Below, one piece after another: positions 25,096 through 43,658 of a stretch of 64,000 bases of DNA. Below the pieces are notes generated by a model. That model worked only from the letters and a program-made list of their open reading frames with translations. It was not told the DNA's origin and did not search any database. Where the stretch lies: positions 1,798,001-1,862,000 of the forward strand of contig NZ_CP115668.1 of assembly GCF_028021195.1 (NCBI RefSeq), given 5' to 3'. Source of the DNA: Cutibacterium equinum. GTDB taxonomy: Bacteria > Actinomycetota > Actinomycetes > Propionibacteriales > Propionibacteriaceae. Numbering within the stretch: position 1 is the first letter of the stretch; each line of letters begins with the position of its first letter. The position numbers were made by a program, and so were the translations under genes.

Positions 25096-25179
25096 GAGCC
25101 TCTTTCCCCCTGTCGATCAGGGACACCTTGAAGTTCACCTGAGGTGGCAGGTACCGCACCCCCAAGCTCATGGCGTAAA

Positions 25180-25300
25180 GTACGGGTGGTCCGGGGGGTG
25201 TACCCCGGACCGACAACTGTGACGGAGAAGCCGGTGAGAGTCCGGCGCTGTCCCGCAACCGTGATGCCACGTGGCTGAGCCGGATCGCCGAATCAGTTGA
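25180..25300 (+). promoter_or_regulatory. Cobalamin riboswitch 1 (translational type)
   Basis: The RNA holds the class-defining core GCCGGTGAGAGTCCGGCGCT and TCCCGCAACCGTG (25251-25263), then a B12 box GAGCCGGATCGCCGAA (about 25277-25292). Downstream, CCTCTCG at 25339-25345 can pair with CGAGAGG at 25364-25370, which overlaps the AGGAG ribosome site (25368-25372) of the first gene, so control is probably at translation: cobalamin bound, site hidden. TAAAGT at 25176-25181 is a possible -10 element just before the aptamer. Confidence 0.92.
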
Positions 25301-25376
25301 GCGTTGATGCCATGTCGTGGGTTGCGTGGCGTGACGACCCTCTCGTTCGTCGCGGTGACCCGCCGAGAGGAGCCTG

Positions 25377-26585
25377 ATGGGTCGCCGCCCACTCACCGTT
25401 GCGAGCCTGCTGGCACTCATGTGCGCCACGGGGTCGATGATGGTTGTCCCCTCCCATGCCGAAGGGGCAGGGTTTCACGACGGATGGTGTCAGAAGGACG
25501 AAGGGTTCGCCGTCGTTGTGTATTGGCCGGCCAAGCCCGCTGACGTGGAGCCCGAGATCCCGGGGAACCTCGACTCGAAGACTTTGGTGCGCTGCATCAT
25601 TGGTGCCCACAAGACATCCGGGGATGGCCGAGAGGATGTCCTGAAGCTCGCGGGACTCGGGTATGCCACACAGGGGGACATCGTCACGACGATCAATGGC
25701 ATCGAGAGCGACGCTTTCGCCGAGATCCCGGCCTACTGGTGGTACCACACCGGCACTCGGGAGGGGGACTCCGGCGGACGGTGGGATCCCAAGAGTAGCT
25801 GGACGCAAAGCCTCAACGTCAACGACTTCGGGCTCATCGTCTTCTCCTCTGATTCCGAACAGCTCCCTCCTGTCACCCCGAATTTTGCCAAGGGTGGGGA
25901 CCACGGCGACGAGCCTGGTCCCGGCCCCGGTCCTGGTCCCGGCCCAGCCCCCGGCCCCGGCCCAGGACCATCGACCGGAGAACCCAGCCACGGACCAACG
26001 GGCAAACCCAGCCACGGACCCACCGGCGAGCCCACCCACAAGCCGACCAGTGGCCACGACAAACCAACGGGCAAACCCACTCGCACATCGGGTCACGGCG
26101 GCGACAAGCCCTCCCACGAACCCGGTCGCAGCCACGGTGGGGACCATCATGACCGTCCCAATCCGACGGCACCGAACCACGCCGACGGCCCCCGACCGCA
26201 CAAGAAGCGCGACCGTGCCGACAGCCGCCCCAACACGATTTCCACAGTCACGGCGACGCCTCCTACGCCGAGCCTCCCGACCGTCAGTTCTGCGTCACCC
26301 TCCCGACCGCGTCCGTCCTCACCGTCAGCCACCCCGAGTTCACCGACCCCCAGTCCCCGCGCGTCCTCTCCTGCCGCAAGCGCCGGATCCTCACTGGCCC
26401 CCCAGTCGTCGTCGCCGGTGTGGGGACGCGAGGACCACACTCGTCGTTCTCCTGACGAGGGCGAACACAAAGGTGCCCCCTGGTGGGTGCCGGTCGGTAT
26501 AGGAGTCGTCGCTCTCGCGGGCCTGGCCTTGGCGCCCGTCATCCACCGCCGCCATCGTCGCGGGGACCAGGAGGACGAGGAATGA
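25377..26585 (+). CDS. Membrane-anchored transcobalamin-like (DUF4430) protein
   Basis: A 402-residue surface protein: signal peptide 1-28 (LTVASLLALMCATGSMMVVP then SHAEG), a DUF4430-type domain at about 35-165 (DEGFAVVVYWPAKPADVEPE, later PAYWWYHTGTREGDSGGRW and SWTQSLNVNDFGLIVF), a long Pro/Gly then Pro/Ser/Thr stalk with GEPSHGPTGKPSHGPTGEP repeats, one membrane helix at about 368-388 and a charged cytoplasmic tail. DUF4430 is the fold of the C-terminal domain of transcobalamin and intrinsic factor, and the gene lies 77 bases after a cobalamin riboswitch, so corrinoid binding is the best guess. It overlaps the next gene by four bases. Confidence 0.82.
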   Translation: MGRRPLTVASLLALMCATGSMMVVPSHAEGAGFHDGWCQKDEGFAVVVYWPAKPADVEPEIPGNLDSKTLVRCIIGAHKTSGDGREDVLKLAGLGYATQGDIVTTINGIESDAFAEIPAYWWYHTGTREGDSGGRWDPKSSWTQSLNVNDFGLIVFSSDSEQLPPVTPNFAKGGDHGDEPGPGPGPGPGPAPGPGPGPSTGEPSHGPTGKPSHGPTGEPTHKPTSGHDKPTGKPTRTSGHGGDKPSHEPGRSHGGDHHDRPNPTAPNHADGPRPHKKRDRADSRPNTISTVTATPPTPSLPTVSSASPSRPRPSSPSATPSSPTPSPRASSPAASAGSSLAPQSSSPVWGREDHTRRSPDEGEHKGAPWWVPVGIGVVALAGLALAPVIHRRHRRGDQEDEE

Positions 26586-27571
26586 ACTGCATCTCCATGA
26601 TCCGCGCGGCGACACTCGCCCTCCTGACGATCTGTGTCAGCGCCGTGGCAGGGGCAGCTCCCGCCCGCGCCGAGCAGAGTTCCCAGACAACCAGCCTGTG
26701 CTCAGGTGCGAAGGTGTGCAGCCTGACCACCGATCGATGGCTGCGAGAAGGGACGACCCCCAGAGTGATCATCCGGGGAAACCCGAATGTGCGAGGCACG
26801 GTGCGGATTTTCCGCGCCTCTGTTTCCGACAACGAACTGAGCGGGCTCACGCCGATCGGCAAGGGCGCATCCTTCTACACCGATGCTCACGGCATGGCCC
26901 AAGTGTATGTGCCCATTCCCTCCTCGTCGGACATCGGCGAGGGCGGCTGGGCTTTGGTGAGTGTCTCAGACATCGAGGGGCTGGACACCACCCGAATGCC
27001 CGGCCAGTTCGTCGCCTTCGGGTCACTCGTGCCGCATCTACTGGGCGATGGCTACTCCGAACGCAAGCCCGCCGGTCAGACCCTCGACATGCAGGCCGTC
27101 GGCGCAATTCCCGGTGACACCTACCGGGTCCAGGTCAAGCAGGGCGACACCTGGCACGATGCCACTGCCATCGGCCAGCTTCCTGCAGCAGCTGTGAATC
27201 CTTCACAGATCACCCACATCCACTGGACGGTGCCGCGCGGACTGACGGGCACGAAACACGACGTCAGGGTGCAGTCACTCACTGATCCGCGCCGCACGGC
27301 GTCATGGGTCCTCATCCCGACCGTCGACGGGGTCAAGGCTGCTCGTAGCCCTTTGTTCACTCCCCCACCGGTCGGCACCAATCTCGGCGTCCCGACGACT
27401 GATCGCGGCGCCCATCCCGAGACAGCGGTCAAGGCTGTCAGCGGAACCCTCTTCGGGGTCGGCGTTGTCTCTGCCCTCGTCGTGACCGGCGCGTCCCGGC
27501 CCAAGCGCTCCTCCAGCGAGCCCTCAAGAGACAACCGGACGCCGTCATCGCCAGAGGCGAGTGCTTCATGA
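26582..27571 (+). CDS. Secreted, membrane-anchored protein of the cobalamin operon
   Basis: A 329-residue protein with a signal peptide (1-29, ending GAAPARAEQ), an all-beta extracellular region of about 250 residues with one disulfide candidate (CSGAKVC, 38-44), and a C-terminal helix AVSGTLFGVGVVSALVVTGA followed by a basic, Ser-rich tail. I do not recognise a family. The pattern of TTPRVIIRGNPNVRGTVRIF and later Ig-like strands suggests two beta-sandwich domains. Four-base overlaps on both sides tie it to the DUF4430 gene and the EcfT-like gene, so a role in substrate capture or handover at the membrane is inferred. Confidence 0.7.
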   Translation: MNCISMIRAATLALLTICVSAVAGAAPARAEQSSQTTSLCSGAKVCSLTTDRWLREGTTPRVIIRGNPNVRGTVRIFRASVSDNELSGLTPIGKGASFYTDAHGMAQVYVPIPSSSDIGEGGWALVSVSDIEGLDTTRMPGQFVAFGSLVPHLLGDGYSERKPAGQTLDMQAVGAIPGDTYRVQVKQGDTWHDATAIGQLPAAAVNPSQITHIHWTVPRGLTGTKHDVRVQSLTDPRRTASWVLIPTVDGVKAARSPLFTPPPVGTNLGVPTTDRGAHPETAVKAVSGTLFGVGVVSALVVTGASRPKRSSSEPSRDNRTPSSPEASAS

Positions 27572-28545
27572 CGACCTCGCGCATTCACACCCCCGCGACC
27601 CCAGTCCCCGCCTGGAGTTGGGGGGCTGAGCTCGTCGTCCTGGCCACTATCGCCATCTCGACGACCAATCTGCTACTTCTCGCGGTGATGTGGGTGTGTC
27701 TGGTGGTGACCCTCGCGATGCTGGGAAACCATCCGGGAGTGCTGGCCACAACTCGCTGGCTGTCCGGGATCGTCGTCGTGTGGTGGATCATCATGGCTGT
27801 CGTCAGCCCTTCAGCGGACTCGGCGATGGGCTCGGTGATGTGGAGGCTACCAACGTGGTCACCTGGTCCAGGAGTTCATCTGGGAGGAGTTATGACGGCC
27901 TCGGGCCTCCTGCTCACCATGACGCCCATGATGCGAGCACTCGTTCTGGTGACACTGTTGGGGGTTGGCATGGCAGCGGTGCCACCCACCAGCGCATCTG
28001 CCGCGGGACGTCGCCTGCTCGGCTCGTGGTCCCCGGCGTTGGAGTTCTTCGCTGCCCTGCCGCCTGCACTGGACCGCCACGCTGTCTACGCAACGGCGCG
28101 TCCTACCGAGATCGCCGCAACCACTCGTGAGGGGGCGTCCGGACTGGCACGTCGACACCGACCGCTGGCTTCTTGGACCGCCTCGGTTCGTGCGCTGATT
28201 CTCATCATCTGCATGACTGTTCCATTCGTCGCGCTGACGTCGGGGCATGCATTCCCCGGAGTCGACCAGGCCACGACCACCTTGATGGCCTTCGTCGTGG
28301 CGGTTCTCCTCACCGCCTTGTTACCGAACGGGGAGCCGATAGGGACGATCTCGGCACTCAGCCTCGTCGTGGCGATTCTGGCCGTTATCACCCTCGCGCT
28401 GTGGGTCATCGGCGTGGACGGATCCGCCGTCACCCCCCACCCAGGGTGGCCGCCGGTTCCGGTCGCCAACCTCATCTGCGTCGTGGCGCTCCCACTGGTC
28501 GTCGCTGTCGTCGGCCCGCGTCGCCGTCAGGGGGTGCCGGCGTGA
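27568..28545 (+). CDS. ECF transporter T-like component, divergent
   Basis: A 325-residue membrane protein with seven to nine hydrophobic segments and a central cytoplasmic region. Its position before an ATPase and an S component, and the overall plan shared with EcfT at 3.9 kb, mark it as a T component. The two canonical coupling motifs (ARG-type) are poorly kept: only ATARPTEIAATTREGASGLA is seen where ARGMESRGYG is expected. It overlaps both neighbours (ATGA, GTGA). Together with the degenerate ATPase next door, this suggests an importer that works in a non-standard way, or that borrows another energiser. Confidence 0.65.
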   Translation: MTTSRIHTPATPVPAWSWGAELVVLATIAISTTNLLLLAVMWVCLVVTLAMLGNHPGVLATTRWLSGIVVVWWIIMAVVSPSADSAMGSVMWRLPTWSPGPGVHLGGVMTASGLLLTMTPMMRALVLVTLLGVGMAAVPPTSASAAGRRLLGSWSPALEFFAALPPALDRHAVYATARPTEIAATTREGASGLARRHRPLASWTASVRALILIICMTVPFVALTSGHAFPGVDQATTTLMAFVVAVLLTALLPNGEPIGTISALSLVVAILAVITLALWVIGVDGSAVTPHPGWPPVPVANLICVVALPLVVAVVGPRRRQGVPA

Positions 28546-29942
28546 TTGTCCTCGATGAGGTGTCGGTGTGGCTGCCCGGCCGTGGCACCGTCGTGAATAA
28601 TGTCAGCCTCTCACTGCCCACCGGCACCGTGACCTGCCTGGTGGGTCGGCGCGGCGCGGGGACGACGATGGTGCTTCGGCTGCTCGCCGGCCAGTTGCCC
28701 GCCGGTGCCCGCGTGCGAGGGAGGGCCTTCATCGACGAGGTCGACGTCATGGATCTGGGGCCGGATCACCTCGCAGAGATGACCCACATCGTCGACACGG
28801 ACCTGCTGACCTGGGCTGATCTGCGAGATTCTGATCCCGTCGAAGCCGGCCCATGGATCCGTCGGCCTCTCGACACCTGGCCACTTGACGTCCGCGCCCG
28901 GCTCGCGACATCGCTCGTCAGCCCCGACGTGGCACGTGGACACAATTACATCCTCGTTGACCATCCGACCTGCGGACTCAACGGTTCCCAGCGCAACAGC
29001 CTCACCGCCCGACTACGTGCCCTGGCCGATCATGGCGCAACAGTGTTGTGGGCCGATCATGACCTCGACGCCGTCTGGTCCGGGGCTGACCGCATCGTGG
29101 AAATGTCGGCGGGATCCGTCGTGTCGGATTCCCCTGCTGGCACGTGGATCCCCCGAGGCCTTCCTCTGCCTGTCGGTCGCGCACTGGTATCTCTGGCAGG
29201 AGTTGAAGGATCTGCCATCTCCGCTGACACCATCCCCAGCGTCTTTCCGGACCTACCACGGCCGCACCACAATCACGCGCACCGCGCCGGGCCTGTCATG
29301 ACAGTGATCGGCTGCCACGATCTCGGTCTCGAAGGCCCTGACCTGGTCATCCACGATCGTGAGACGCTGGCCATCGTCCGCGCCGAGGACCTTGCGGGAG
29401 CGACCGGTCTTGAGCCTCCTCGCGAGGCACAGGATTCTGTCCGGCCGGAATCCGTGGCCTCCCGGTTACTGGGTGCGCTCCCCCGGCCAGGGCGTTGTCT
29501 CTCCTCGGCCTCACTACGTCCCAGCCAAGACCTGCACCAGGTTGCAGGAACAACCGAGTTGGCGTCGAGACGACGCCGCGACCTGTCCCGCGGGGAGCGC
29601 GCATGGCTGCGCATCCACGGTCACTTGACGACCCCGGAGCCGCTACTCCTGGCCCACGCCGACCACGACCTCGACCCGATCGAGAGGTCACGGGTGTCGC
29701 AGAGCCTCTTCGACGAACCAGCGGGCCTACGCATCGTCACGACTCGAGACGTGGAGTTCTTGGTACGCGCCGCCCATCGCGTCATCGTCATCGACGGGCA
29801 CCGCGTCATCACCGACCGATCCCCACTGGCGCTCGGACTCGCTCCGCTCACGCGGGTCGGAACCTTCACAGGTTCCCGACATCACATGACCCTGGGAGAT
29901 GTCATCACCTCCCTCGACCTCATGGCGGGGAGGACGTCATGA
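28542..29942 (+). CDS. Degenerate double ABC ATPase of the cobalamin operon
   Basis: A 466-residue protein with the layout of a fused EcfA1-EcfA2. Domain 1 has the Walker A frame GRRGAGTT (35-42) but threonine replaces the essential lysine, and Walker B is YILVDHP (136-142) with histidine in place of the catalytic glutamate; no LSGGQ is present. Domain 2 lacks a usable Walker A (VRAEDLAGATG, about 279-289), keeps a recognisable signature LSRGERAWL (348-356) and has LLLAHADHD for Walker B. D-loop-like and switch regions (ADHDLDAVWSGADRIVEM) are kept. Reading frame and length are intact, so this is not a simple pseudogene. The GTG start overlaps the T-component stop. Confidence 0.75.
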   Translation: MIVLDEVSVWLPGRGTVVNNVSLSLPTGTVTCLVGRRGAGTTMVLRLLAGQLPAGARVRGRAFIDEVDVMDLGPDHLAEMTHIVDTDLLTWADLRDSDPVEAGPWIRRPLDTWPLDVRARLATSLVSPDVARGHNYILVDHPTCGLNGSQRNSLTARLRALADHGATVLWADHDLDAVWSGADRIVEMSAGSVVSDSPAGTWIPRGLPLPVGRALVSLAGVEGSAISADTIPSVFPDLPRPHHNHAHRAGPVMTVIGCHDLGLEGPDLVIHDRETLAIVRAEDLAGATGLEPPREAQDSVRPESVASRLLGALPRPGRCLSSASLRPSQDLHQVAGTTELASRRRRDLSRGERAWLRIHGHLTTPEPLLLAHADHDLDPIERSRVSQSLFDEPAGLRIVTTRDVEFLVRAAHRVIVIDGHRVITDRSPLALGLAPLTRVGTFTGSRHHMTLGDVITSLDLMAGRTS

Positions 29943-30892
29943 CAACCACCAGGACAACTGCCGCGGCACCCGCTCGCCACCCCATCGGTTGGCAGACGGT
30001 CGGGGCGACCTCGGGTGGCCTCAGCCGCACCATTGCCATCGTCCAGGTCTTGCTCGGCATCATCTGGCTGACCTGGCCGGTGTGGGGTTCGCGCACTGCC
30101 GCCCTCCAGACCCAGGCTGAGTCAACTGCACCGTGGCTTGTCGCAGCCCAGATCGGTGTCAGTACAGCCCTGGCGGTCATCCTCGTGCGCGAAACCAAGT
30201 CCGCCCGTCCCCTCAGCCTCGTTCTGGGCTCATCCGTGATTGCGGCGGGGGTCCGTGCAGCTCTGGCCCCTGGAGTCAGCGGTATCGAGCCAGTCTTCTG
30301 GATCCCGCTGCTCGTCGGCGCGGTCCTGGGAGCCCCCGGTGGCGTCCTCGCCGGGACCCTCACCTGTCTGGTCTCGTCGGCGGCCATCGGCACCCTCGCC
30401 ACCCCGCTCGCCGGGCAGCTCGTCGTCTGGCAGCTGTGGGGATTGGCCGGGTCTGCCATGGTGCGACTGCGCGCCCTCACGACCTGGATCACCGGCGCCC
30501 TGTGGTGCCTGATCCTCGGCCCGATCACCGGACTCTTGCTCAACCTCATGGGATGGGCATGGACCCAGGCCGACCCTGGACAATCCTTCCTCGCCGGACT
30601 CGGCCCAATCGAGGAGGCTCAACGCCTGTGGGCTTGGACCCGTGCCACCTCACTGGCCTTCGACATGTCCCGGGCGATCACGAACTCCATTGTCTGGCTC
30701 ATCGTGACTCCGTTCGTCACCCGCGCCCTGCGTCAAGCCCTTGCCCCGGATCGTCGTGCATCGGCACGAGTCAGACCCATCGTCTCGACTGTCGACGACA
30801 AAGCCCTGGGCAAACGAAACCTCACCGGCCTCACGAATTCCTTCCCGATCACCACTCACCATTCAGGAGACGACGATGACACACCACGCTGA
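29939..30892 (+). CDS. ECF transporter S component, cobalamin-regulated
   Basis: A 317-residue membrane protein with six main helices (starting TIAIVQVLLGIIWLTWPVW) and a soluble basic C-terminal tail of about 50 residues. It is paralogous to the S component at 6.8 kb, with matching GVRAALAPGVSGI and DMSRAITNSIVW regions. Its operon begins with a cobalamin riboswitch and a transcobalamin-like protein, so cobalamin or a precursor is the predicted substrate, as for CbrT-type S components. ATG 29939 overlaps the ATPase stop by four bases; the 3' end overlaps moxR by 17 bases. Confidence 0.75.
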   Translation: MTTTRTTAAAPARHPIGWQTVGATSGGLSRTIAIVQVLLGIIWLTWPVWGSRTAALQTQAESTAPWLVAAQIGVSTALAVILVRETKSARPLSLVLGSSVIAAGVRAALAPGVSGIEPVFWIPLLVGAVLGAPGGVLAGTLTCLVSSAAIGTLATPLAGQLVVWQLWGLAGSAMVRLRALTTWITGALWCLILGPITGLLLNLMGWAWTQADPGQSFLAGLGPIEEAQRLWAWTRATSLAFDMSRAITNSIVWLIVTPFVTRALRQALAPDRRASARVRPIVSTVDDKALGKRNLTGLTNSFPITTHHSGDDDDTPR

Positions 30893-31892
30893 CGCCGACA
30901 TCCACGAACGTCCCCCACTCGGTGAGCAGGAGCTGAACTGGGCTGCAGATCGGCTCGGTGCTCTGTCGAGCGCGTTCAGCGAGCGGGTCGTGGGGCAGTC
31001 CGCCCTGCGTACGAGCCTGCTGGTGGCGATATTGGCCCGAGGACATGTGTTACTCGAATCGGTCCCCGGACTCGCGAAAACACTTGCGGCCTCCACACTG
31101 GCCTCGGCCGTCGACGGTTCCTTCACCCGCGTGCAATGCACCCCTGACCTGTTGCCTTCCGACATCATCGGCACTCAGGTCTTCGACCAGTCGACGGCAA
31201 CCTTCCGCACCGAACTGGGGCCAGTGCACGCCAACATCGTGCTACTCGACGAAATCAACCGGTCCAGCGCGAAGACCCAGTCGGCCATGCTCGAGGCCAT
31301 GCAGGAGCGTCAGACCTCGATCGGAGGAGTCATCCACCCACTGCCTGACCCTTTCATGGTGTTGGCAACCCAGAACCCCATCGATGAGGAGGGCACCTAC
31401 GTCCTGCCCCACGCCCAGATGGACCGCTTCCTCCTCAAGGAGGTGCTCGACTACCCCGACGTCTCCGAGGAGCTCGAGGTCCTCAACCGCATCGAGGATG
31501 GGTCGATCGACGCCCCGGCAGACCCCGTGGTGAAAACCCATGACATCCTCACCCTTCAGGACCTCGCCCGTCGCGTCGTCGTCGATGAGGCCATCAAGCG
31601 TTACATCATCGACCTCGTCGCGTTGACCCGCCACCCTGAGTCCGCCCTGTCGGACTCCGCCGCCCGTGCCATCGAGTACGGCGCGTCCCCGCGTGCCTCG
31701 ATCGCCTTCATGGCCGTTGCGCGGTCTCTGGCCCTGCTGAATGGCCGCGCCCACGCCATCCCGGAGGACGTCGTCGCCCTCCGCCACGCCGTACTGCGTC
31801 ACCGTGTGGTCCTCAGCTTTGAGGCCCAGGCCCAGCGAGTACGCCCCACCGACGTCATCGACGCCGTCTTCGAGGCGGTGCCCACCCCGTGA
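30876..31892 (+). CDS. MoxR-family AAA+ ATPase
   Basis: A 338-residue MoxR ATPase. Walker A is ESVPGLAKT, Walker B NIVLLDEINRSS, sensor 1 is in MVLATQNPIDEEGTY and the arginine finger region is DRFLLKEVLDYP. MoxR proteins work with VWA-domain partners as chaperones that mature enzyme complexes or insert metals and cofactors. AGGAGA lies six bases before the ATG. The start lies inside the S-component gene, so this unit is translated from the same message as the cobalamin uptake genes. That coupling is unusual. Confidence 0.92.
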   Translation: MTHHADADIHERPPLGEQELNWAADRLGALSSAFSERVVGQSALRTSLLVAILARGHVLLESVPGLAKTLAASTLASAVDGSFTRVQCTPDLLPSDIIGTQVFDQSTATFRTELGPVHANIVLLDEINRSSAKTQSAMLEAMQERQTSIGGVIHPLPDPFMVLATQNPIDEEGTYVLPHAQMDRFLLKEVLDYPDVSEELEVLNRIEDGSIDAPADPVVKTHDILTLQDLARRVVVDEAIKRYIIDLVALTRHPESALSDSAARAIEYGASPRASIAFMAVARSLALLNGRAHAIPEDVVALRHAVLRHRVVLSFEAQAQRVRPTDVIDAVFEAVPTP

Positions 31893-32824
31893 CCATGACC
31901 CCGACCTCTTCCGCCGACGTCCTCGGCAGCCGGGAGCAGGCTCTCATCCAAGCCGTGCGTTCCCGGTTGCCGCTGGAGTTGCGGCACCGGGTGACGTCCC
32001 TCCTCGACGGAGACCACGACTCGGTCCACGTCGGTCGCAGCCTCGATTTCAACGACCTGCGCACCTATGCCACCGGCGATGACGTCAAGGACATCGACTG
32101 GAAGGCCACGGCCCGTCGCGGGGAGTTGCTCATCCGTCGTCACGTCGCCCAGCGTCAGGCCACCCTCATGGTTGGGGTGTGCGGCACCCCGGCGATGCGT
32201 GGTTGGTGTGACATGAACGTGACGAAGGCCCACATGGCGGCGGTGGTGACGGCAATCATGGCCCAGATCGCCGTGGACCACGGTGATCGAGTCGCAATGG
32301 TGTGCGCAGGCCACGGTCAGACCTCCTCGTGGCGTCCGACCGTGCGACTGCCACAGGTGGAACGGATGCTCCACGAGATCATCAGCCTCGAACAGGCCAG
32401 TGGTTCCCCGGACCCCCACGTCGAGGAAACCGTGCTCGCGACAGCCACGAACGCCATGCGACGCCCCGGGTTGCTTCTCCTCATCCGCGACGACACGGAG
32501 TTCACCTCGGCCCAGGTCAATGCGTTGAGCCGGGCCGCGGTACGCCACGACATCATCGTCGTCACCCTCACCGACATGCTGGCCACCGATCCCAGGCTCG
32601 TCGGCCGCGCCATCACGGCCGCCGATGGTGGCCCCTCGGTGATGCAGGAGATCCTTGGCGACCGTCAGCTCCGGGAGGCATCCGAGTCTGCGCAGATCGA
32701 CCTTGCCCGCCGCAGTGACGCCATGCTCGATGATCTCGGTATCGCCCATGCCCGAGTACAGACCGTCGCTGATGCTCCAGAAGCTCTTGCCCTCGCCCTG
32801 TCACGACGCAGGAGGCGATCATGA
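31889..32824 (+). CDS. DUF58 protein (VWA-related MoxR partner)
   Basis: A 311-residue soluble protein with the DUF58 signature GRSLDFNDLRTYATGDDVKD followed by IDWKATARRGELLIRRHV, then a VWA-like second half. It is standard in moxR operons. The GTG at 31889 overlaps the moxR stop (GTGA); ATG 31895 is the alternative. Its stop overlaps the next ATG by four bases. Confidence 0.88.
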   Translation: MTMTPTSSADVLGSREQALIQAVRSRLPLELRHRVTSLLDGDHDSVHVGRSLDFNDLRTYATGDDVKDIDWKATARRGELLIRRHVAQRQATLMVGVCGTPAMRGWCDMNVTKAHMAAVVTAIMAQIAVDHGDRVAMVCAGHGQTSSWRPTVRLPQVERMLHEIISLEQASGSPDPHVEETVLATATNAMRRPGLLLLIRDDTEFTSAQVNALSRAAVRHDIIVVTLTDMLATDPRLVGRAITAADGGPSVMQEILGDRQLREASESAQIDLARRSDAMLDDLGIAHARVQTVADAPEALALALSRRRRRS

Positions 32825-33288: not shown

Positions 33289-34268
33289 TGCAATGGCCGT
33301 TCGCCGTCGTCGCCGCCATCGCCGTCCTGGCGGTGGTCATCGCCGCATTCCTGCAGCCCCTCAACCGCCGCCGTCGGGTGCAGCACTCCGCGGTTCCGCT
33401 GGATCATTTGGACCGACTGCGGGCTCTCCCCCGTTACCAGAACCTCGTTCGTTCCCGGCTTCGGCGCCGCCTCGTCCAGGTGGTGTGCGTTCTCGTCGCT
33501 GCCACGTGCCTCGTCGTGCTGGTGGGTCGTCCTGCCAAACCTGACAAGTCCTGGCAACTGCGTCGCAACCATGACGTCGTGCTATGTCTCGACGTCTCCG
33601 GGTCGATGTCTGAGGTCGATCATGACGTGACCGAGGCCTACCGCACACTGGCGCAGCGCCTGGGAGGCAACCGGATCGGCCTGGTGGCCTTCGACTCGGC
33701 TGCCGTGACGATTTTCCCCCTCACCGACGACGCGGACTACATCGACTCCCAACTCTCCCAGTTCGCCCATGATCTTGATCACGGCCCCGTCCCAGGGTCC
33801 AGGGCAGGAACAAGCGGTTCCAGCCTCATTGGTGACGGGTTGGCCTCCTGCCTCCAGCGTTTCGACGGTTCGGACGACCAGCGCGCACGCACCGTGGTAC
33901 TGGCCACCGACAATCAGCTCTCTGGCACACCGGTCTTCAGCCTCAACGAGGCGATCCGCCAAGCTGCGAAACGCAACGTTCTGGTCCAGGCAGTTGCGCC
34001 TTCGGAGGCGGATGCCACCGCAGTGTCGGTCCTCCATGACGCCGTGGCACACACGGGAGGTGAGGTCACCCTGGTCACCGGAACGAGTCTGGAGGACCCG
34101 AATCGCATCATCACCGCGGTGACTTCCCAGCAGGCTCGTGTGACCGCCGCCACCGCCCGGTGGACCCAGACCGACGTCGTCTGGCCCTTCGGGGTGCTGG
34201 CTCTGGTGTGCCTCGTCACCGCGACTGTCATGGAGATCGCCCCCAAGCGCGGGAAGGAGAACTCATGA
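33279..34268 (+). CDS. VWA-domain membrane protein (BatA-like)
   Basis: A 329-residue protein: two N-terminal helices (about 7-27 and 64-83), a VWA domain at about 95-290 with an intact metal site DVSGSMS, and a C-terminal helix (VVWPFGVLALVCLVTATVM). This is the BatA layout of moxR operons, where the VWA domain faces the outside or periplasm-equivalent and binds a divalent metal. Four-base overlap with the next gene. Confidence 0.85.
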   Translation: MALMQWPFAVVAAIAVLAVVIAAFLQPLNRRRRVQHSAVPLDHLDRLRALPRYQNLVRSRLRRRLVQVVCVLVAATCLVVLVGRPAKPDKSWQLRRNHDVVLCLDVSGSMSEVDHDVTEAYRTLAQRLGGNRIGLVAFDSAAVTIFPLTDDADYIDSQLSQFAHDLDHGPVPGSRAGTSGSSLIGDGLASCLQRFDGSDDQRARTVVLATDNQLSGTPVFSLNEAIRQAAKRNVLVQAVAPSEADATAVSVLHDAVAHTGGEVTLVTGTSLEDPNRIITAVTSQQARVTAATARWTQTDVVWPFGVLALVCLVTATVMEIAPKRGKENS

Positions 34269-35218
34269 CCGTCCATCCTGACTGGGTCCTCCTCGTTGTG
34301 GCAGTCCTGGCAACACTTGCCCTGGCTGCCATTGCGGTGACGACACGACGGCGTTCTTCCCCCCGATCCACCGCAGCCATGTGGTGCCGGGTCCTGGCTG
34401 CCCTGTTGCTGGTGGGGGTGGCCCTGCGCCCTGGGAGCGCCGACATCCCACACAGCGATGAGGCGGCCGGGGCTGAAGTCATCGTCATCGTTGACCGCAC
34501 CACCTCGATGGGAGCAACCGACCATGACGGCAAGTCACGAATGTCGGGGGTGACCGCCGACCTCGTCTCCCTGGCTGATGCGATGCCGTCGGCACGAGTG
34601 ACCGTCATCGCCTCGGACAATCAGGCGCGGATCGCGCTGCCACCCAGCACCGACCCGGCGGCTCTGCGCACCCTCGCCGAGACCCTGGGCTGGCGGGAAA
34701 CGATGAACGCGGCTGGTAGTGACATCGGCATGGCCGAACCGCTCGCTCGCCAGATGCTCGTCAAGGCGCGAGACAGTCGCCCCACCGCCAAGAGATACCT
34801 GGTGTACATGGGCGACGGAGAACAGACGGCGTCCTCGGCTCCGCACAGTTTTTCCGACATTTCTGGGCTCATCGACGGCGGGCTGGTCCTCGGCTACGGA
34901 ACGACCTCGGGAGGAACCATGCCCATCCGTCCCGGTGCGACGGAAAAAGTGACCAGGAATGGCTCTCCTGCGGTGTCTCATGCTGATCCGCAGGCATTGC
35001 GGACCATGGCTGAGCAGATGGGCGGACGGTTCCTCCAACGCAACGCCGCCAGCAAGGTGACATGGTGGGAAAACCCGCTTCAACAGCCGGCGGATCCACA
35101 GCCGGGTCGCACTCGCCACTGGGCATGGTGGTTTGCCGCAGCCGCGCTGGTCTGTGAGATGGCAGATGCCTGGCTCAGCGTGCGGGCGTGGCGACGGATG
35201 CGCAAGGATGTGGCGTGA
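34265..35218 (+). CDS. Second VWA-domain membrane protein
   Basis: A 317-residue protein with two N-terminal helices (LLVVAVLATLALAAIAV; AAMWCRVLAALLLVGVAL), a VWA domain with metal site DRTTSMG (threonine in place of the first serine), and a C-terminal helix HWAWWFAAAALVCEMADAWL. It pairs with the preceding VWA protein, as BatA and BatB do. The ATG at 34265 overlaps the previous stop. Its stop shares a base with the next ATG. Confidence 0.82.
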   Translation: MTVHPDWVLLVVAVLATLALAAIAVTTRRRSSPRSTAAMWCRVLAALLLVGVALRPGSADIPHSDEAAGAEVIVIVDRTTSMGATDHDGKSRMSGVTADLVSLADAMPSARVTVIASDNQARIALPPSTDPAALRTLAETLGWRETMNAAGSDIGMAEPLARQMLVKARDSRPTAKRYLVYMGDGEQTASSAPHSFSDISGLIDGGLVLGYGTTSGGTMPIRPGATEKVTRNGSPAVSHADPQALRTMAEQMGGRFLQRNAASKVTWWENPLQQPADPQPGRTRHWAWWFAAAALVCEMADAWLSVRAWRRMRKDVA

Positions 35219-35916
35219 TGGCGAATCTGGAAAGACCGGGACGTCGTGGCATGCACGGTGTGAGAGCACCGTGGACTGTGCGGGTTGGGGCCGGAGTCGT
35301 CGCTCTGGTGGCCCTCGCGGCAGCGGCTCTTCCCGCTCGGACGATGATCCTCGTTGATCGCGGACGGGCTGACCTTGACCGAGGAGACGCAGCCAGCGCC
35401 GAGCGGAAGTTCACGGCTGCCGAGAGGGCGGCAACCGTCGACAAGTGGATCGCTCCCTATGACGCTGGGGTCGCCCGGTACATCCGAGGCAACTATGACG
35501 GGGCCACGGACAAGTTTGAGAAGGCCGCGGGTCTGGCCCCTGACGAGGAACAGTGCCGGATTCGTCTGAACTGGGCATGGTCGTTGGAAGCTTCCGCTGA
35601 CCGGTACGCCGAGGCCGACAACCGTGACGAAGCCCTCGTGAGATGGCGTCAGGGCAAGGCTGTGCTTGCTGACGCCCATTGCACGTCAGCGGCGCACACG
35701 GCTGAGGCGAACAGCACCAGATCTCGCCTTGATCGCAAGCGCCAGAACGGTGGCGGAGGGGACGCCGGCGAGGAAGCGGACTCCTCCGGTCGGCAGAACA
35801 AGAAGGACGAGTTGGACGAGAAAGTCAGGAAGGCCCAGGAACAGCGCCAGAAGGCGCTGGACCAGGCCAACACCTCCCAGAAGGACTCGGGTTCGGGCAC
35901 TGGACGGACGTGGTAG
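35218..35916 (+). CDS. TPR-like membrane protein ending the operon
   Basis: A 232-residue protein with one N-terminal helix (GAGVVALVALAAAALP), tandem TPR-like helices (DRGDAASAERKFTAAERAAT; YIRGNYDGATDKFEKAAGLA; RLNWAWSLEASADRYAEADN) and a Gln/Lys-rich charged tail predicted to be coiled coil. It corresponds to the BatC-type TPR protein of aerotolerance operons. It is the last gene of the coupled chain and is followed by a strong hairpin. Confidence 0.75.
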   Translation: MANLERPGRRGMHGVRAPWTVRVGAGVVALVALAAAALPARTMILVDRGRADLDRGDAASAERKFTAAERAATVDKWIAPYDAGVARYIRGNYDGATDKFEKAAGLAPDEEQCRIRLNWAWSLEASADRYAEADNRDEALVRWRQGKAVLADAHCTSAAHTAEANSTRSRLDRKRQNGGGGDAGEEADSSGRQNKKDELDEKVRKAQEQRQKALDQANTSQKDSGSGTGRTW

Positions 35917-36004
35917 CCCGAAGGTACGCATCGGCCTCCAGATATCGAAGTCGTGGCCGCGAATAGGAGGATTATCTGACGCGACCTGCGCTCGAGACGA
36001 CACA

Positions 36005-36032
36005 GGGCTCCACCGCCATGGCGGTGGAGCCC
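36005..36032. terminator. Bidirectional terminator hairpin
   Basis: A perfect 28-base palindrome (14+14) lies between the end of the cobalamin/moxR operon and the end of the convergent DUF4430-LRR gene. No U-run on either side. Confidence 0.75.
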
Positions 36033-36048
36033 TGCTGTCACTCGGGAA

Positions 36049-38577
36049 TCAGACTCCCGTGGATGGAAGTCCGAGGTGGCGCGTGGGGCTGTCCGGGAGG
36101 GACGGATTCACCGGGATATCACCCTGGCGAGGTCCGGGCTTGGCCACAGAGGTGGGAGGAACCGGCGTCGGCGTCACGGTCACAGTCCCGGTCGGCGAAA
36201 CCGTCGGTGCCACGGACGTCGGTACCGCGGACGAGGTCGGAACGACCGTCGGGGTTACCGTCGGCGTAGGCGTGACAGCAGACGTCTCCGTAGGTGAAGG
36301 CGTTACCGTCGGTGCCACGGTCGAGGTCGGAACGACCGTCGGGGTCACCGTCGGGGTCGGCGTCACCGTAGGCGTCACCGTAGGCGTAGGAGTCACACTC
36401 GGCGTAGGCGTCGGGGTCACCGTCGGGGTCGGCGTCGGAGTAGGGCTGGGAGTCGACACCGCAGCCGTCACCGGCTGGATCCACGTCCCGGAGAAGTCCT
36501 CGGAGTGGCTGGTGGCGTCGTTGTGCGACCACGTCCACTCATACCCTTCATCGCTGGCGGCCGGGTAGGTCACCATGTCACCTGAAGCCACAATTCCCTC
36601 AGGCGCCGTGAACTCAACCTTGGACCCATCGGCAGCCTTCGCCACCGGGACCGCAACCTGCTGCTGGGCTGGAACGGCAGAGGCCGTCACCTTCTGCCAG
36701 CGGGCGCGAAGACCCATGAATGCGGTGTTCTTGACCCCAGACAACGGTGAGAGGTCAGAGATGTGGTTCGAATTGAGATTTATCTTGGTGAGATTCTTCA
36801 TCCCGGCCAAGGCGGAGACATCGGAGATCTCATTGTTGTCGAAACCAATTTCGACAAGGTTCGTCAACCCCTGGATCGGAGTCAGGTCGGAGATCTTGTC
36901 ACCGTTGAGAAACAGCTTCTTCAACGAGGTGGCGCCGGAAATCCCGGAGAGATCAGCCAGGTTGACGTTGTTGTTGGCGACAAGTCGCTCAAGTGCAGGC
37001 AGCGAGCCCAGCCCGTCGAGACTGGTCACACCGGGATACTTGTACTTGCCGCGGTTCATCTGGTTGATCGTCAGATCGGTCAAGTTGGTCAGCGACGACA
37101 ACGGCTGCACCGTGGTGATCGGGTTCTGATCCAAGACCATCGCCTTCATATTCTTCAGACCCGCAAGCGGCGCCACATCCGTGACGTGGTTGTTGGGCAG
37201 GTACAGGGTCTCGAGCTTCGTCAGACCTGCAAGCGGCTCGACGCTATCAATCTCGTTGGTCGTCAGGACCAGGCTGTTGACGTTCGTCAGCGCCTCAGCT
37301 CCGGTAATGTCCTTGATTCCCTTGTTGATACACGTGACCTCGGTCAACCCAGCAAGATTCTCAGCAGTCAGAGGCGCGCCGTCCTCCAAGGAGTCCTGCA
37401 GGCAGGACTTGAAGTTCGGGTCAGGGATCTCGACGAGCTTCGCCGGTTCGGGAGCTGCAACGACGTGGACCGTGATGGACCCGTTGAAGTACATCGAGGC
37501 GTCGCGGAACTGCCACACGTAGTCGCCCGCAGAGGGGTACGTGACGTTCTTGCCCTTGATCTTGACGCCTTCAGGAACCTCACGATCAGCCACGAAGGTC
37601 GTGCCTTGATGGTCGACGGCGGTCGGGACGGGGGCCTCGACCCCGGCAGTGGCCGACCCACCGTCAACGGTCTGGTAGTTCGAGACGATGTCGGTGTCTC
37701 CCAGCCCCTTGATGTCCTTGAGTGGGGACAGATCGCGGATGTGGTTCTTGCCGACGTCCAGATGCGACAGTTTCGTCAACGACCTCAGCGGCGTGACATC
37801 GGAGACTCCAATGCTGTTGACATCCAGGCTGAAAATGCCAGTCATGGAGGCCAACGGCTTGAGATCACTGATCTTGTTCTCCGGCAGGAATGCCTTTTCC
37901 AATCCGGTCAGCTGATCGATACCGGTAAGGTCCTTGATTCCCCTGTTCCGGCAGCTCAGGCTCGTGACACCGTCGAGTTGTTCCTTGGTGGGAGTGGTGG
38001 TACCCACCTTGTCGGTGATGCATTTTTGCAGGGCCTTGTCAGGAATCTCGAAGGAGGCCGCCGGAGTGGTGGGAGCCGGATCGACCTTCGGCTTCCAGGT
38101 CGGAGGGACCTCCCATGGGCCGTCGATGAGCATGTAGTGCCATGCCTCGATCGAACCGGGCTCCGGATGGTAATTACTCGCACCGAGCTGCGAGTACTCC
38201 CACGTTGTCTCGGTGTTCTTGCCTGCCGGCTTCCCGTGGAAATAGCCCCAGTAAGCGTAGAATTTGTCGGGGTTTTCCGGATAGCCGTTAATCGAATCGA
38301 TAAACAACCCCAGGTCACCACCGAAATCGGTGTTACCGATGTCGAAACCAGCCGACGTCAAGGCTTCCACACCGTTGGAGAACTTGGTAGCACAACCAGT
38401 ATCGACATGGCCGTCATCGCGCTCGGCATAGACGAAGACGTGGTTCTCGTTGATGCACTTCTGCGCATCAGAGTCGTAGGACGGCGGTGCCGCAGATGCC
38501 GGGCCAAGATGGGTGATGGCAATTGGCAGTGCCACTGCTGCTGCGAGTAGACCAGCCAAACCCCGTAGACGTCTCAC
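36049..38577 (-). CDS. DUF4430 and leucine-rich-repeat surface protein with LPSTGV end
   Basis: An 842-residue secreted protein. Order: signal peptide 1-31; DUF4430 domain about 35-155 (KCINENHVFVYAERDDGHVD, FYAYWGYFHGKPAG, GSIEAWHYM); internalin-type LRR block about 190-300; Ig-like strand region about 305-385; second LRR block about 395-640 (LTGLTKLETLYLPNNHVTDV type units); second Ig-like region; Thr/Pro/Val stalk about 720-800; and the sequence LPSTGV as the very last six residues, with no membrane helix or basic tail after it. GTG start with AGGA eight bases upstream. It is controlled by riboswitch 2. Likely a corrinoid-capturing or adhesive surface protein. Confidence 0.85.
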   Translation of the reverse strand: MRRLRGLAGLLAAAVALPIAITHLGPASAAPPSYDSDAQKCINENHVFVYAERDDGHVDTGCATKFSNGVEALTSAGFDIGNTDFGGDLGLFIDSINGYPENPDKFYAYWGYFHGKPAGKNTETTWEYSQLGASNYHPEPGSIEAWHYMLIDGPWEVPPTWKPKVDPAPTTPAASFEIPDKALQKCITDKVGTTTPTKEQLDGVTSLSCRNRGIKDLTGIDQLTGLEKAFLPENKISDLKPLASMTGIFSLDVNSIGVSDVTPLRSLTKLSHLDVGKNHIRDLSPLKDIKGLGDTDIVSNYQTVDGGSATAGVEAPVPTAVDHQGTTFVADREVPEGVKIKGKNVTYPSAGDYVWQFRDASMYFNGSITVHVVAAPEPAKLVEIPDPNFKSCLQDSLEDGAPLTAENLAGLTEVTCINKGIKDITGAEALTNVNSLVLTTNEIDSVEPLAGLTKLETLYLPNNHVTDVAPLAGLKNMKAMVLDQNPITTVQPLSSLTNLTDLTINQMNRGKYKYPGVTSLDGLGSLPALERLVANNNVNLADLSGISGATSLKKLFLNGDKISDLTPIQGLTNLVEIGFDNNEISDVSALAGMKNLTKINLNSNHISDLSPLSGVKNTAFMGLRARWQKVTASAVPAQQQVAVPVAKAADGSKVEFTAPEGIVASGDMVTYPAASDEGYEWTWSHNDATSHSEDFSGTWIQPVTAAVSTPSPTPTPTPTVTPTPTPSVTPTPTVTPTVTPTPTVTPTVVPTSTVAPTVTPSPTETSAVTPTPTVTPTVVPTSSAVPTSVAPTVSPTGTVTVTPTPVPPTSVAKPGPRQGDIPVNPSLPDSPTRHLGLPSTGV

Positions 38578-38664
38578 TATTCCTGCCTTTCACTGGGTGG
38601 ACGCTTCTAGGCCATCCAGCGCTGGGCCAGGATCGTCTTTTCCGCTGTCCACGACGGAAACAAG

Positions 38665-38800
38665 TACGGGACATCTCAACGATGGCGATCCGACTTAGCC
38701 GACATTTTTGTCGGTCTACACGGTTGCGGGACAGTCCTGGATTCGCACCAGGTTCTCCATCGGTGAAACCATGTGAAGCCTAACACACAGGTTCGCAGCG
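38665..38800 (-). promoter_or_regulatory. Cobalamin riboswitch 2
   Basis: Read on the minus strand: CACATGGTTTCACCGATGG, then ACCTGGTGCGAATCCAGGAC, then TCCCGCAACCGTG (38719-38731 on the plus map) and the B12 box AAGTCGGATCGCCATC (about 38682-38697). It lies 90-220 bases upstream of the DUF4430-LRR gene. Its expression platform (38580-38660) can form CGTGGAC/GTCCACG-type pairing, but the switch mechanism is not clear. Confidence 0.9.
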
Positions 38801-38837
38801 CCTAACTAGATGTGGACATGTGATGGGCGCGAGCTTA

Positions 38838-38945
38838 GACTGACACTGCAACCACGGGGGAATCCGGTGAGAATCCGGAGCTGACCCGCAACCGTGAGGG
38901 GCTCGTCCCCAAGTCGGAGTACCTGGGTTGCGCCAAGGAACATCA
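38838..38945 (+). promoter_or_regulatory. Cobalamin riboswitch 3
   Basis: Core AATCCGGTGAGAATCCGGAG, then ACCCGCAACCGTG (38884-38896), and a B12 box AAGTCGGAGTACCTGGG (about 38911-38927); TGCAACC at 38847 pairs with GGTTGCG to close the aptamer. Downstream, CCTGAG (38991-38996) can pair with CTCAGG (39008-39013), overlapping the AGGAAGAAGG ribosome region of the next gene, so control is probably at translation. It is back to back with riboswitch 2; only about 40 bases separate the aptamers, so the promoters must lie in or beside that gap. Confidence 0.92.
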
Positions 38946-39028
38946 CACCGTCGAGGACTGCGGTGGGTTCAACTCGGGGGGCTTTCCCGTCCTGAGCGCA
39001 ACGCATCCTCAGGAAGAAGGCCCGCCAC

Positions 39029-40933
39029 ATGACCAGGCTCAATCGATGGGTCGCCGGTCTCGCCGCCGGTGCACTCGTCGCATCACCGTTCGTGGTACCG
39101 GCGTTCGCTGACCCGCAGCCCGCGCCATCACACGCACCTGTCACCGCCACCATTGATGACGGTTCCGCCCCGTACTGCTTCGATCCGCCGGCCAGCCCGG
39201 TCAAGGGTGCCATGTGGGCCGGATCGGTCAACGACACCGCTGCCACCAGTAAGTACGTCGCCGCGGCCGCCGACTGGCTCGCCCAAAAGTGGCAGGAAGA
39301 CCCGACGACCTACGGACAGGCTGGCGGTGTCGCCGACGGCATCATTGCTCTGGTCGGCTCCGATGCCCATCCTGACGTCGTCAAGGAGATGACTGCGGCC
39401 CTCAAGGAAGCAGGCCCGAAATACGTCGAGAACAACCCGGCTGGTCTGGCGAAGGTCATCATGACCGCCGAGATCCTCGGCGAGGATCCGACCTACTTCC
39501 TCGGCAAGGAAACTGGAAACCTCTGGGTCAAGCTTGCCGGCTATATCAACGATGAGACCCCGGGTATGCAGAACCGCGTCAACATGTACTGGGGCCCGCA
39601 CCTCATCACCATTGCGCTGACCCGCGCCAACCGCCCGGTGCCACAGAAGATCATCGACAAGTTGCTGTCGACTCAGGGCACTGACGGCACGGACGCCGGC
39701 GCTTTCGGTTACACCAAGCGGAACCAGGACGGCAGCAGTGTCTTCGTCGGCGACCCCGACTACACCGGTATCGCCCTGTCTGACCTGACTCTGCTGCAGC
39801 GCAACTCTCATCTCATCCCGGACGGCTACCAGGCCAAGATCGATGCTGCTGCCGCCAACGCCACCACGTGGGCCATGAACACCAAGGAGCACGACGACGG
39901 CGACTACTGGGAGACCTACTCCGCCGCCAACTCGACCGGCATGCTCGCCAGTGCTCTGGCCGAGCGTGGCGAGGACATGAAGTCCGTCAAGCAGTGGATG
40001 ATTCGCCAGCAGCTCCTCACCAACGTCGGTGCGTGGCAGGCCAAGCGCAACTCGAGTGAACCCAACCTCATGGCCACCGATCAGGCGGTCATGGCTGTTT
40101 CGGGCCACGGTTACGCCTCGGCATGGTCCGGCAAGGCCCCGGAGGGTGTTCCGTCCTGCAAGACCACCCCGTCCGCGACTCCCACCGCTACCCCGACAGA
40201 CACTCCCACCCCTACCCCGACAGACACTCCCACCGCCACCCCGACCGGCAAGCCCGGTGACATGAGCGGCGCCCAGCAGTGCATCGCCGTGGGCCACGTC
40301 TGGGTGTACGTCGAGCAGGACAACGGCACCTCTAAAGGCGGATGCGCATCGAAGTTCAACGATGGTTTCGAGGCTCTTGAGTCGGCAGGGTTCGCCATCG
40401 AGTCCAGCGGTGGGTTCCTCCACAAGATCGACGGTTACCCGAAGGTGTCTAACATCAACGAGGCGTACTGGTCCTACTGGCATGCCACCCCGGCCGGCGC
40501 TGACAAGCCGGTGAAGTGGCAGTACTCGATGACCGGTGCTGGTAGCGCCAAGCTCAAGCCTGGTTCCATCGAGGGCTGGTACTTCAAGTCCCTCTCCGCT
40601 GACTGGAATACTGGACCGAGCTGGGATGCCCGCCTGACACCATATGCTCCCTCGGCTACCCCGACTCCGAATCCGAGCGTGACCCCGACCCAGACACCGA
40701 CGATGACCCCGACCGTGACCCCAACCGGAACGGCCACACCGACGCCATCCGCCACCCCAACAGTGACTCCCACGGTCACGCCCACTGTCACTCCGACGAT
40801 GGCCCCGACCGGATCGGCCACTCCCGCACCATCCGCCACGGCGACCGCCGATGACCCAGTGCAGGTGGCTCCCGTCGGCCCGTCGAACCGTCCTGCGGAT
40901 CGTCTGCCGGCCCTGCCCCATACTGGCGTCTGA
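39029..40933 (+). CDS. Intrinsic-factor-like protein: alpha/alpha barrel plus DUF4430, LPHTGV end
   Basis: A 634-residue secreted protein. Signal peptide 1-30 ([14 protein letters not shown]). Residues 40-375 are a helical-repeat domain like the prenyltransferase/terpenoid cyclase alpha/alpha barrel: paired helices such as [40 protein letters not shown], and the late [20 protein letters not shown]. After a Thr/Pro linker (380-410) comes a DUF4430 domain (about 413-520: [47 protein letters not shown]). A second Thr/Pro stalk ends in LPALPHTGV at the exact C-terminus, with no membrane anchor. Barrel followed by DUF4430 is the domain order of mammalian intrinsic factor and transcobalamin. Riboswitch 3 controls it. 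Confidence 0.85.
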
Positions 40934-40980
40934 GGACAATCGATACGACGAAATACTCCCTGCTGCGGCATGATCGTCAT

Positions 40981-41658
40981 GTGAGTATTCCCAACATCGA
41001 ACAGCGGCGAGCACTCCGACCATGGTCGGGTGTGCTCGCCGCTGTCTTGTGTGCAGCCCTGTCCATCGTCTTCCCGCTCTGGGCGCAGGCTGCCCCCTCC
41101 CCGAGCGCCGAAACCAGCCAGGCGAAGGCCATTGACGACTGCCTCAACGCCAACAAGGTGTGGGTCTTCGTCATCACCGAGGAGGAAGAGGTGCTGTCGA
41201 ACCAGTGCGTCGACTCGCCGTCCACCGGCGCCGATGCCCTCAAGAAGGCCGGAATCACCGCCGGTAAGAACAAAACCGGTCTCATCTGCACGATGAATGA
41301 CCATCCCGCAGTCTGCCCCAAGAAATTCCAGGGCCAGTACTGGGCGTATTACCACGCATCTGGCGCCGGTGCTGCGTGGGATTACTCCAAGAAGGGTGCC
41401 GACCAATATCAGCCGGCCGCCGGATCCATCGAAGGCTGGTGCTACAACAAGCCGAAGACCAAGTCCTGCACTCCCCCCACGTTGGCTGCCGGGAGCGCCG
41501 AGGGCGCCTCTTTCGAACTGACCCACAACAGCGAGGGGGACGCCCCCTCCTCGTCAGGCCACGGCCCCATGTCCGGGCCTGTTGCCACGGTCGTCGTCAT
41601 TGCCGTCGTCGCCGTCCTCCTCCTCGCTGCAGTTGTTGTGCGTCGTCGTCAGTCCTGA
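40981..41658 (+). CDS. Membrane-anchored DUF4430 protein
   Basis: A 225-residue protein: signal peptide about 1-38 (VLAAVLCAALSIVFPLWAQA), one DUF4430 domain about 45-155 (DDCLNANKVWVFVITEEEEV, QYWAYYHASGAGAAWDY, AAGSIEGWCYNK), four or more cysteines that could form disulfides, a short linker, a C-terminal helix (VATVVVIAVVAVLLLAAVVV) and RRRQS. It lies 47 bases after the intrinsic-factor-like gene. Its GTG start has no ribosome site but CATGAT lies five bases upstream, so it may also have a leaderless transcript. It is a good candidate for a membrane-side receiver of corrinoid from the stalked proteins. Confidence 0.82.
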   Translation: MSIPNIEQRRALRPWSGVLAAVLCAALSIVFPLWAQAAPSPSAETSQAKAIDDCLNANKVWVFVITEEEEVLSNQCVDSPSTGADALKKAGITAGKNKTGLICTMNDHPAVCPKKFQGQYWAYYHASGAGAAWDYSKKGADQYQPAAGSIEGWCYNKPKTKSCTPPTLAAGSAEGASFELTHNSEGDAPSSSGHGPMSGPVATVVVIAVVAVLLLAAVVVRRRQS

Positions 41659-43451: not shown

Positions 43452-43606
43452 GATGTCCTCCACTGAAGTCAATGGCAGGACGCTCCTGCCACCATCCGGC
43501 TTCTTCATCGGAAACCGGACCTCACACCTTACGAAACCACCATGTGAGTCGCCAAACCACCCCCGACCATACGATTCTTCGAAATCGCGTGTGAAAAGCA
43601 GAGTGA

Positions 43607-43634: not shown

Positions 43635-43658
43635 TTTCCGGGTCAATCACCCATCAGA

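Follow-up and report, generated by a model that had tools for sequence, protein, structure and literature searches.

Transcobalamin-like surface proteins and a degenerate energy-coupling factor set in a predicted riboswitch-controlled corrinoid cluster of Cutibacterium

A gene cluster at 25.2-41.7 kb of a 64,000-nucleotide stretch of DNA (the window, C1:1798001-1862000 in a single-contig genome of 2.51 Mb from a Cutibacterium near C. porci) is interpreted here, with moderate confidence, as a new variety of riboswitch-controlled cluster for the capture and uptake of corrinoids, the binding of which is predicted. A role in corrinoid handling is probable because transcobalamin-like surface proteins are found under cobalamin riboswitches beside genes of the energy-coupling factor (ECF) type. 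An original prediction of cobalamin capture and import therefore stands as far as these neighbouring components are concerned, but not in its assumption of ordinary ECF import. The cluster starts with a riboswitch followed by the genes A, B, T, AA*, S, MoxR, DUF58, X, VWA1, VWA2 and TPR and by a hairpin, behind which follow G and its riboswitch on the reverse strand, and then a further riboswitch, H and I.

The most telling member is H (39029..40933, forward strand), which consists of an alpha/alpha toroid, a Pro/Thr linker, a DUF4430/SCO2322-like beta-grasp domain and a Pro/Thr stalk ending in LPHTGV. The 13 best Foldseek matches of its AlphaFold model (pLDDT 79.7) are all transcobalamin, intrinsic factor or haptocorrin, and they span model residues 37-493, which include both domains. 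As modelled, H is a two-domain transcobalamin-like protein, whose toroid had been overlooked earlier. Only H displays the plan of a toroid followed by a beta-grasp domain, and its secondary structure agrees with it. H differs from transcobalamin, intrinsic factor and haptocorrin in being bacterial and Pro/Thr-stalked, in its Pro/Thr interdomain linker and in a sequence identity of about 11-16%; the closed ligand-bound arrangement belongs to the known proteins, to which H is likened by predicted fold. At the sequence level, no transcobalamin was found with the domain alignment in the PDB, and the PDB matches of H alone are confined to Pro/Thr-rich stretches. The proposed structural comparison with intrinsic factor and transcobalamin is thus borne out for H, whereas the model of A, predicted from one sequence, reached a pLDDT of 31 and is unusable.

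G (36049..38577, reverse strand) combines a SCO2322/DUF4430-like domain (38083-38484) with leucine-rich repeats (LRR_4, E 4e-34) and a Pro/Thr stalk ending in LPSTGV, and I (40981..41658, forward strand) carries a SCO2322/DUF4430-like domain (SCO2322_fam E 3.4e-7, below the cut-off) and a C-terminal membrane helix. The domains of G, H and I are mutually alike (31-41% identity, E 3e-11 to 2e-32), as in the pairs G and H (41%, E 2e-32) and I and G (35%, E 4e-16); their scores of 133-169 bits against the domain profile are inflated because this profile includes all three. Pfam DUF4430 (PF14478, cut-off 23.8) matches no whole protein of the window at E<=1 and only 3/54 aligned domains, the best being H at E 0.032 or 15.1 bits, below the cut-off. 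NCBIfam SCO2322_fam (NF040672) matches 54/54 aligned domains at E<=0.01 (best 4.3e-10), yet G, H and I reach 17.6-30.7 bits, far below the cut-off of 85, and A is not matched.

A (25377..26585, forward strand) is a secreted protein with a weakly DUF4430/SCO2322-like domain (residues about 28-180), a Pro/Ser/Thr linker and a C-terminal membrane helix. It is absent from the domain profile and scores 10.6-14.0 bits against it, with 0/2000 shuffles reaching 14.0. Its place as a fourth DUF4430 domain is weak, because a profile-profile comparison with the SCO2322 alignment (hhalign) is not significant (E 0.09), and because two A domains of the congener G003 score like shuffles (their scores were reached by 318 and 976 of 2000), while a third gives no score. 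Of the four DUF4430-like proteins first proposed, G, H and I are therefore clearly of SCO2322 type and distantly DUF4430-like, while A qualifies only weakly; the Pro/Thr stalks of G and H and the C-terminal membrane helices of A and I can be read in the sequence as claimed. The same congener also possesses an A-type protein with two tandem A domains and an LPATGA end (L057, 6864-8669).

Neither G nor H has the form of an LPXTG sortase substrate, as they stop at LPSTGV and LPHTGV, respectively. No hydrophobic helix lies past either motif in any frame, and the idea of phase variation by a frameshift behind it was rejected. The genome encodes two sortases. Several stalked surface proteins of the genus likewise stop one residue past LPxTG or LPxSG and have no membrane helix there (36049-36051 and 40931-40933 in the window; L046, L048 and L057).

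The leucine-rich repeats of G, which are internalin-like, and the Pro/Thr stalks would also suit host-binding adhesins that are merely under B12 control, and riboswitches precede adhesin fragments of unknown role in C. acnes according to passages of PMC9600381. We regard this explanation as improbable, because it accounts neither for the toroid and beta-grasp domains nor for the S and ATPase genes that neighbour such proteins in other actinobacteria.

Two of the three riboswitches are above the RF00174 cut-off of 31.5 bits, namely those 5' of A (25174..25307, forward strand, 32.7 bits) and 5' of H and I (38815..38944, forward strand, 44.1 bits). The third, 5' of G (38630..38783, reverse strand), is of the adenosylcobalamin (AdoCbl) type and remains just below its cut-off (RF01482, 45.3 bits, E 1.9e-5, cut-off 50), and an overlapping RF00174 match there has 24.7 bits. 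The claim of three cobalamin riboswitches is thus upheld for two and nearly so for the third, and the RF00174 search that had been set beforehand as a check succeeded at 2/3 sites. The gap between riboswitch and open frame is 50-85 bases at all three sites (frames starting at 25377 and 39029 on the forward and at 38577 on the reverse strand). Genome-wide, 17 RF00174 matches have E<=0.001, 12 of which are above the cut-off. A search for the B12-box consensus was dropped, as it returned 52 occurrences with 49.6 expected in shuffles.

Cobalamin riboswitches govern cobalt transport too (passages of PMC9600381), and the ligand might consequently be cobalt or another cobalamin-controlled nutrient instead of a corrinoid. 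The neighbouring SBP_bac_5 protein at 41745, with a NikA match of 133 bits (below the cut-off of 393), would fit this reading. We nevertheless consider it improbable, as the known use of the two-domain transcobalamin-like plan seen in H is to bind corrinoids.

The ECF components are a T-type membrane protein (T, 27568..28545; hhalign against type-1 T 98.3%, E 2e-14), a fused double ATP-binding cassette (ABC) ATPase (AA*, 28542..29942) and an S component (S, 29939..30892), all on the forward strand. We distinguish type 2, in which S occurs with MoxR and with an ECF ATPase lacking the Walker A lysine, from type 1, with two lysines and no MoxR. The S of the window is of type 2, and homology between eight type-2 S and 26 type-1 S is evident (hhalign 99.9%, E 1.7e-31). 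PF12822 matches 19/26 type-1 S at E<=0.01 and 3/8 type-2 S, the window S not among them; the lone PDB match of the S profile, CbrT of a B12 ECF transporter, has E 1.2 and is not counted as evidence.

Both halves of AA* lack the Walker A lysine: the N-terminal half reads GRRGAGTT, the motif is gone from the C-terminal half, and GxxGxGK[ST] is absent from both. LSGGQ and Walker B also deviate from their usual form. The motifs are read in their customary sense and topology by the positive-inside rule, and the Arg cluster of ECF T components couples T to the ATPases. Such a cluster (at least 4 R/K per 9 residues) is present in 20/20 full-length type-1 T; the window T has at most 3 R/K per 9 residues at 150-210, and the C. 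porci T is likewise without it. Its loss is claimed for the window T and not for type 2, because 6/16 full-length type-2 T keep one. The ratio of nonsynonymous to synonymous substitution rates (dN/dS) of AA* against C. porci is 0.19, similar to T, S and B, so we regard AA* as kept and not as decaying. A T/A/S set is accordingly present in homologues (S and T by hhalign), but its ATPase is degenerate. The statement that an ECF importer takes the corrinoid in is not supported as worded, given the missing GxxGxGK[ST] and the gene order, which ties the cluster to a MoxR-VWA operon that had been overlooked as well.

Without its Walker A lysines AA* should, as read from its motifs, no longer act as an ABC motor, so that energy would have to come from another source. 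S is directly followed by a MoxR-DUF58-X-VWA-VWA-TPR operon on the same strand. It comprises a MoxR-type AAA+ ATPase with its PGLAKT lysine kept (30876..31892; PF07726 E 1.3e-58), a DUF58 protein (31889..32824; PF01882 E 4.2e-23), the small DUF4381-like X (32821..33288; PF14316 E 1e-5, just below the cut-off), two von Willebrand A (VWA) proteins that are probably membrane-anchored, judging from helices in the sequence (VWA1, 33279..34268, PF13519 E 3.3e-12; VWA2, 34265..35218, PF13519 E 2.1e-9), and a BatC-like TPR protein (35218..35916; PF13432 E 2.5e-5, below the cut-off; TPR_BatC_Lepto E 0.006). With AAA_3, DUF58, two VWA and a TPR protein in a row, this is the arrangement of Bat-type operons, to which we liken it presumptively, with one weak BatC match; it differs from these in being joined to an ECF remnant and to riboswitch-controlled surface proteins. 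An ARAGORN call of tRNA-Leu on the reverse strand within X (32956-33053) has no Rfam match and was rejected as probably false.

The neighbouring MoxR-VWA-TPR machine is the most likely energy source, although we propose it tentatively; it is our first choice because its lysine is kept and because a MoxR lies beside every type-2 S examined. Next, and rather unlikely, is the type-1 ECF module 18 kb upstream, which is intact and is ranked second because 19/19 genomes with type 2 hold a further type-1-like S match; pure surface display is ranked third.

We envisage that low cellular cobalamin would cause the riboswitches to release expression, as is the known behaviour of such RNAs, and that H, G, I and probably A would be displayed on the cell surface. 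H would clasp the corrinoid between its toroid and its beta-grasp domain in the manner of transcobalamin and intrinsic factor; I and A, which have the beta-grasp domain only and are located at the membrane, might take it over, while G, I and A may share the load or pass the corrinoid on. The S/T pair of the former ECF transporter would form the membrane receptor, and the MoxR-VWA-TPR machine might act on this complex from across the membrane, by pulling on it or resetting it. The complete picture, a B12 importer whose ECF ABC ATPase is off, with MoxR via the membrane VWA as motor and fed by transcobalamin-like receptors, is more doubtful than the choice of the energy source; the Arg cluster kept in 6/16 type-2 T weighs against it and slightly lowered our estimate.

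Type 2 is a recurrent arrangement. A species-genome scan with domain alignment comprised 80 of 105 confirmed stretches, corresponding to 78 loci, all labelled Actinomycetota except L118 and L129 (Anaerolineaceae kind). By blastp on open reading frames, a relative of S was found in 57/78 loci and a toroid in 20/78; the S query by masked tblastn recovered 20/78 loci only. Of 66 loci with an ECF ATPase, 58 have two Walker A motifs, five have one (cut by the locus end) and three have none (L063, L074 and L076). MoxR occurs in 4/78 loci, namely these three and L058 of C. porci, the ATPase of which lies outside the locus and also lacks the lysine.

Against 245 genomes of the order, the type-2 S alignment produced 20 matches of at least 231 bits in 19 genomes and a next one of 128 bits, a gap which is partly built in because type-2 rows had gone into the profile. 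The S tree serves as an independent test of the split. In it, the 22 type-2 rows are split from the 66 type-1 rows at full support, with one change, so that type 2 goes back to one event and was kept over long branches. We compared 12 new type-2 places and nine earlier type-2 loci with eight hand-chosen type-1 places. All 21 type-2 loci have the MoxR PGLAKT lysine and an ECF ATPase without the Walker A lysine (in L184 an open frame covers just one half of this protein), and in all eight type-1 controls two Walker A lysines are present and MoxR is absent. A toroid and/or DUF gene accompanies 10 of the 12 new loci and is missing from the fetched stretch of L216 and L225. The loss of the lysine and the linkage to MoxR-VWA are stable across the family of the window and Nocardioides.

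Riboswitches recur in these relatives. Eight of the 12 new type-2 loci were scanned; in five of them A, B and/or the toroid gene are preceded by one that exceeds the cut-off, whereas L217, L219 and L221 have none. RF00174 matches above the cut-off precede A, G and H in C. porci. In the congeners G002, G003, G004 and G005 matches of 28.8-31.5 bits, of which one just reaches the cut-off and the other three do not, precede the toroid gene that opens the run A-B-T-AA*-S-MoxR; the congener G001 has no SCO2322 domain and a type-1 S only. Among 37 of the 78 loci scanned, 26 carry a cobalamin-clan riboswitch above the cut-off, in 25 cases shortly upstream of a same-strand toroid or DUF gene (L107 is the exception); type 2 is represented among the 37 by L063, L074 and L076, with a riboswitch above the cut-off in L063.

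It is conceivable, though rather unlikely, that after capture by the surface proteins the corrinoid is transported by the intact type-1 ECF module (T-AA-S at 3875..7601, forward strand, with the Walker A motifs GRTGTGKS and GRNGSGKS and an S placed with type 1 in the tree), which may be shared and on which the type-2 S would dock. The assembly or regulatory role this would leave to AA*, T* and MoxR is equally doubtful. The module does lie within the same window, a weaker, type-1-like S match accompanies the type-2 S in 19/19 genomes, and in group II ECF transporters several S components are known to use one common module (passages of PMC5997447). Yet the co-occurrence of both S types says little because an S match of some kind occurs in 204/245 genomes of the order. 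Moreover, T* and AA* are under purifying selection, although a free S would not need them, and the Rfam scan found no riboswitch above the cut-off near the type-1 genes. The type-1 module adjoins truA (named by eye).

The general view of MoxR-VWA sets is that they assemble protein complexes or remodel them. This, the probable outside position of the VWA and TPR parts as suggested by their helices, the loss of the ABC motifs in AA* and the presence of the B12-synthesis gene CbiC in the genus would also be compatible with capture without import, in which the corrinoid binders are shown on the surface for storage or for denial to neighbours. We hold this to be unlikely, and the same applies to the corollary that the MoxR-VWA-TPR machine is an assembly chaperone of the stalked proteins and the ECF remnant a membrane scaffold. 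S and T remain conserved as membrane components, and control by riboswitches is usual for genes of uptake and synthesis; both points speak against capture without import. CbiC is carried by all nine genomes of the genus searched, so the system is a scavenging system of a cobalamin maker, as had been supposed from the start.

Transcobalamin-like B12 scavenging in bacteria is already in print: in passages of Burroughs et al. 2007 (PMC1796856), transcobalamin-like SLBB proteins with CbiO/CbiQ genes are predicted to scavenge B12 in a clade of animals, low-GC Gram-positives, planctomycetes and some archaea, the bacterial bearers usually being without key B12-synthesis enzymes. The present proteins resemble that clade in being secreted, in the toroid fusion, in their paralogous genes and in CbiO/CbiQ-like neighbours, and the riboswitch-toroid loci agree with that prediction and extend it to actinobacteria. 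They differ from what those passages describe in that the bearers are CbiC-bearing Actinomycetota and in that type 2 has a lysine-less ATPase and MoxR-VWA. ECF-CbrT, as portrayed in parts of PMC5997447, shares S- and T-type membrane proteins and the likely B12 cargo; the present set has an ATPase without an intact Walker A and added surface binders, and S is linked to CbrT at E 1.2 only. The BtuG B12 binders of Bacteroides similarly capture B12 at the surface ahead of import, but form an outer-membrane lipoprotein system and are likened by function only (excerpts of PMC6143338 and PMC10404256).

Searches of one open-access library, subscription papers not being covered, yielded no report of an ECF set with a dead ATPase that is linked to MoxR-VWA. 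Open-access searches likewise returned no paper on MoxR together with energy-coupling factor, none on SCO2322 and none with DUF4430 in title or abstract; MoxR, von Willebrand factor and cobalamin together led to other subjects only, by title.

If correct, our interpretation would mean that Cutibacterium, a genus of the skin, has a putative corrinoid receptor of the same build as human intrinsic factor, which would be relevant to competition for B12 among skin microbes. It also suggests one reason for cobalamin riboswitches before surface-protein genes in Cutibacterium, of which C. acnes provides a case in the passages of PMC9600381. The question is raised whether an AAA+ MoxR machine drives or replaces an ABC-type importer, and with it that of the function of MoxR-VWA operons; if true, an importer would be powered by a different ATPase class than ABC.

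A second, diverged type-2 (MoxR-linked ECF) cluster is found in the genome of the window (L181 and L046, C1:2278000-2291300). It encodes a toroid protein with a membrane anchor and a surface protein with two DUF-like domains, Ig-like repeats and an LPKSGV end, and its sole riboswitch match (25.6 bits) is on the strand of the neighbouring surface-protein gene. In L046 (7592-11116), this weak match precedes a surface protein of 1117 residues with a complete LPNTG anchor and apparently leucine-rich and Ig-like repeats. Elsewhere in the genome, at L018 3573-6069 (C1:1912573-1915069), a riboswitch is followed by a secreted protein with a toroid and an SGNH-hydrolase-like part (likeness by eye), with two further riboswitches within about 4 kb.

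The remaining features of the window cluster are B (26582..27571, forward strand), a secreted protein with a C-terminal membrane helix and syntenic homologues in other type-2 clusters, for which no Pfam or NCBIfam domain was matched, and a strong hairpin (35993..36044), an inverted repeat which separates the two converging operons and is a probable two-way terminator. The hairpin was noticed by a chance match to mir-4776, far below the cut-off and on both strands. Two tandem paralogous solute-binding lipoproteins (41745-45431, that at 41745 being SBP_bac_5) adjoin the cluster, and the pair stays beside gene I in C. porci, in C. avidum and in one Cutibacterium metagenome-assembled genome.

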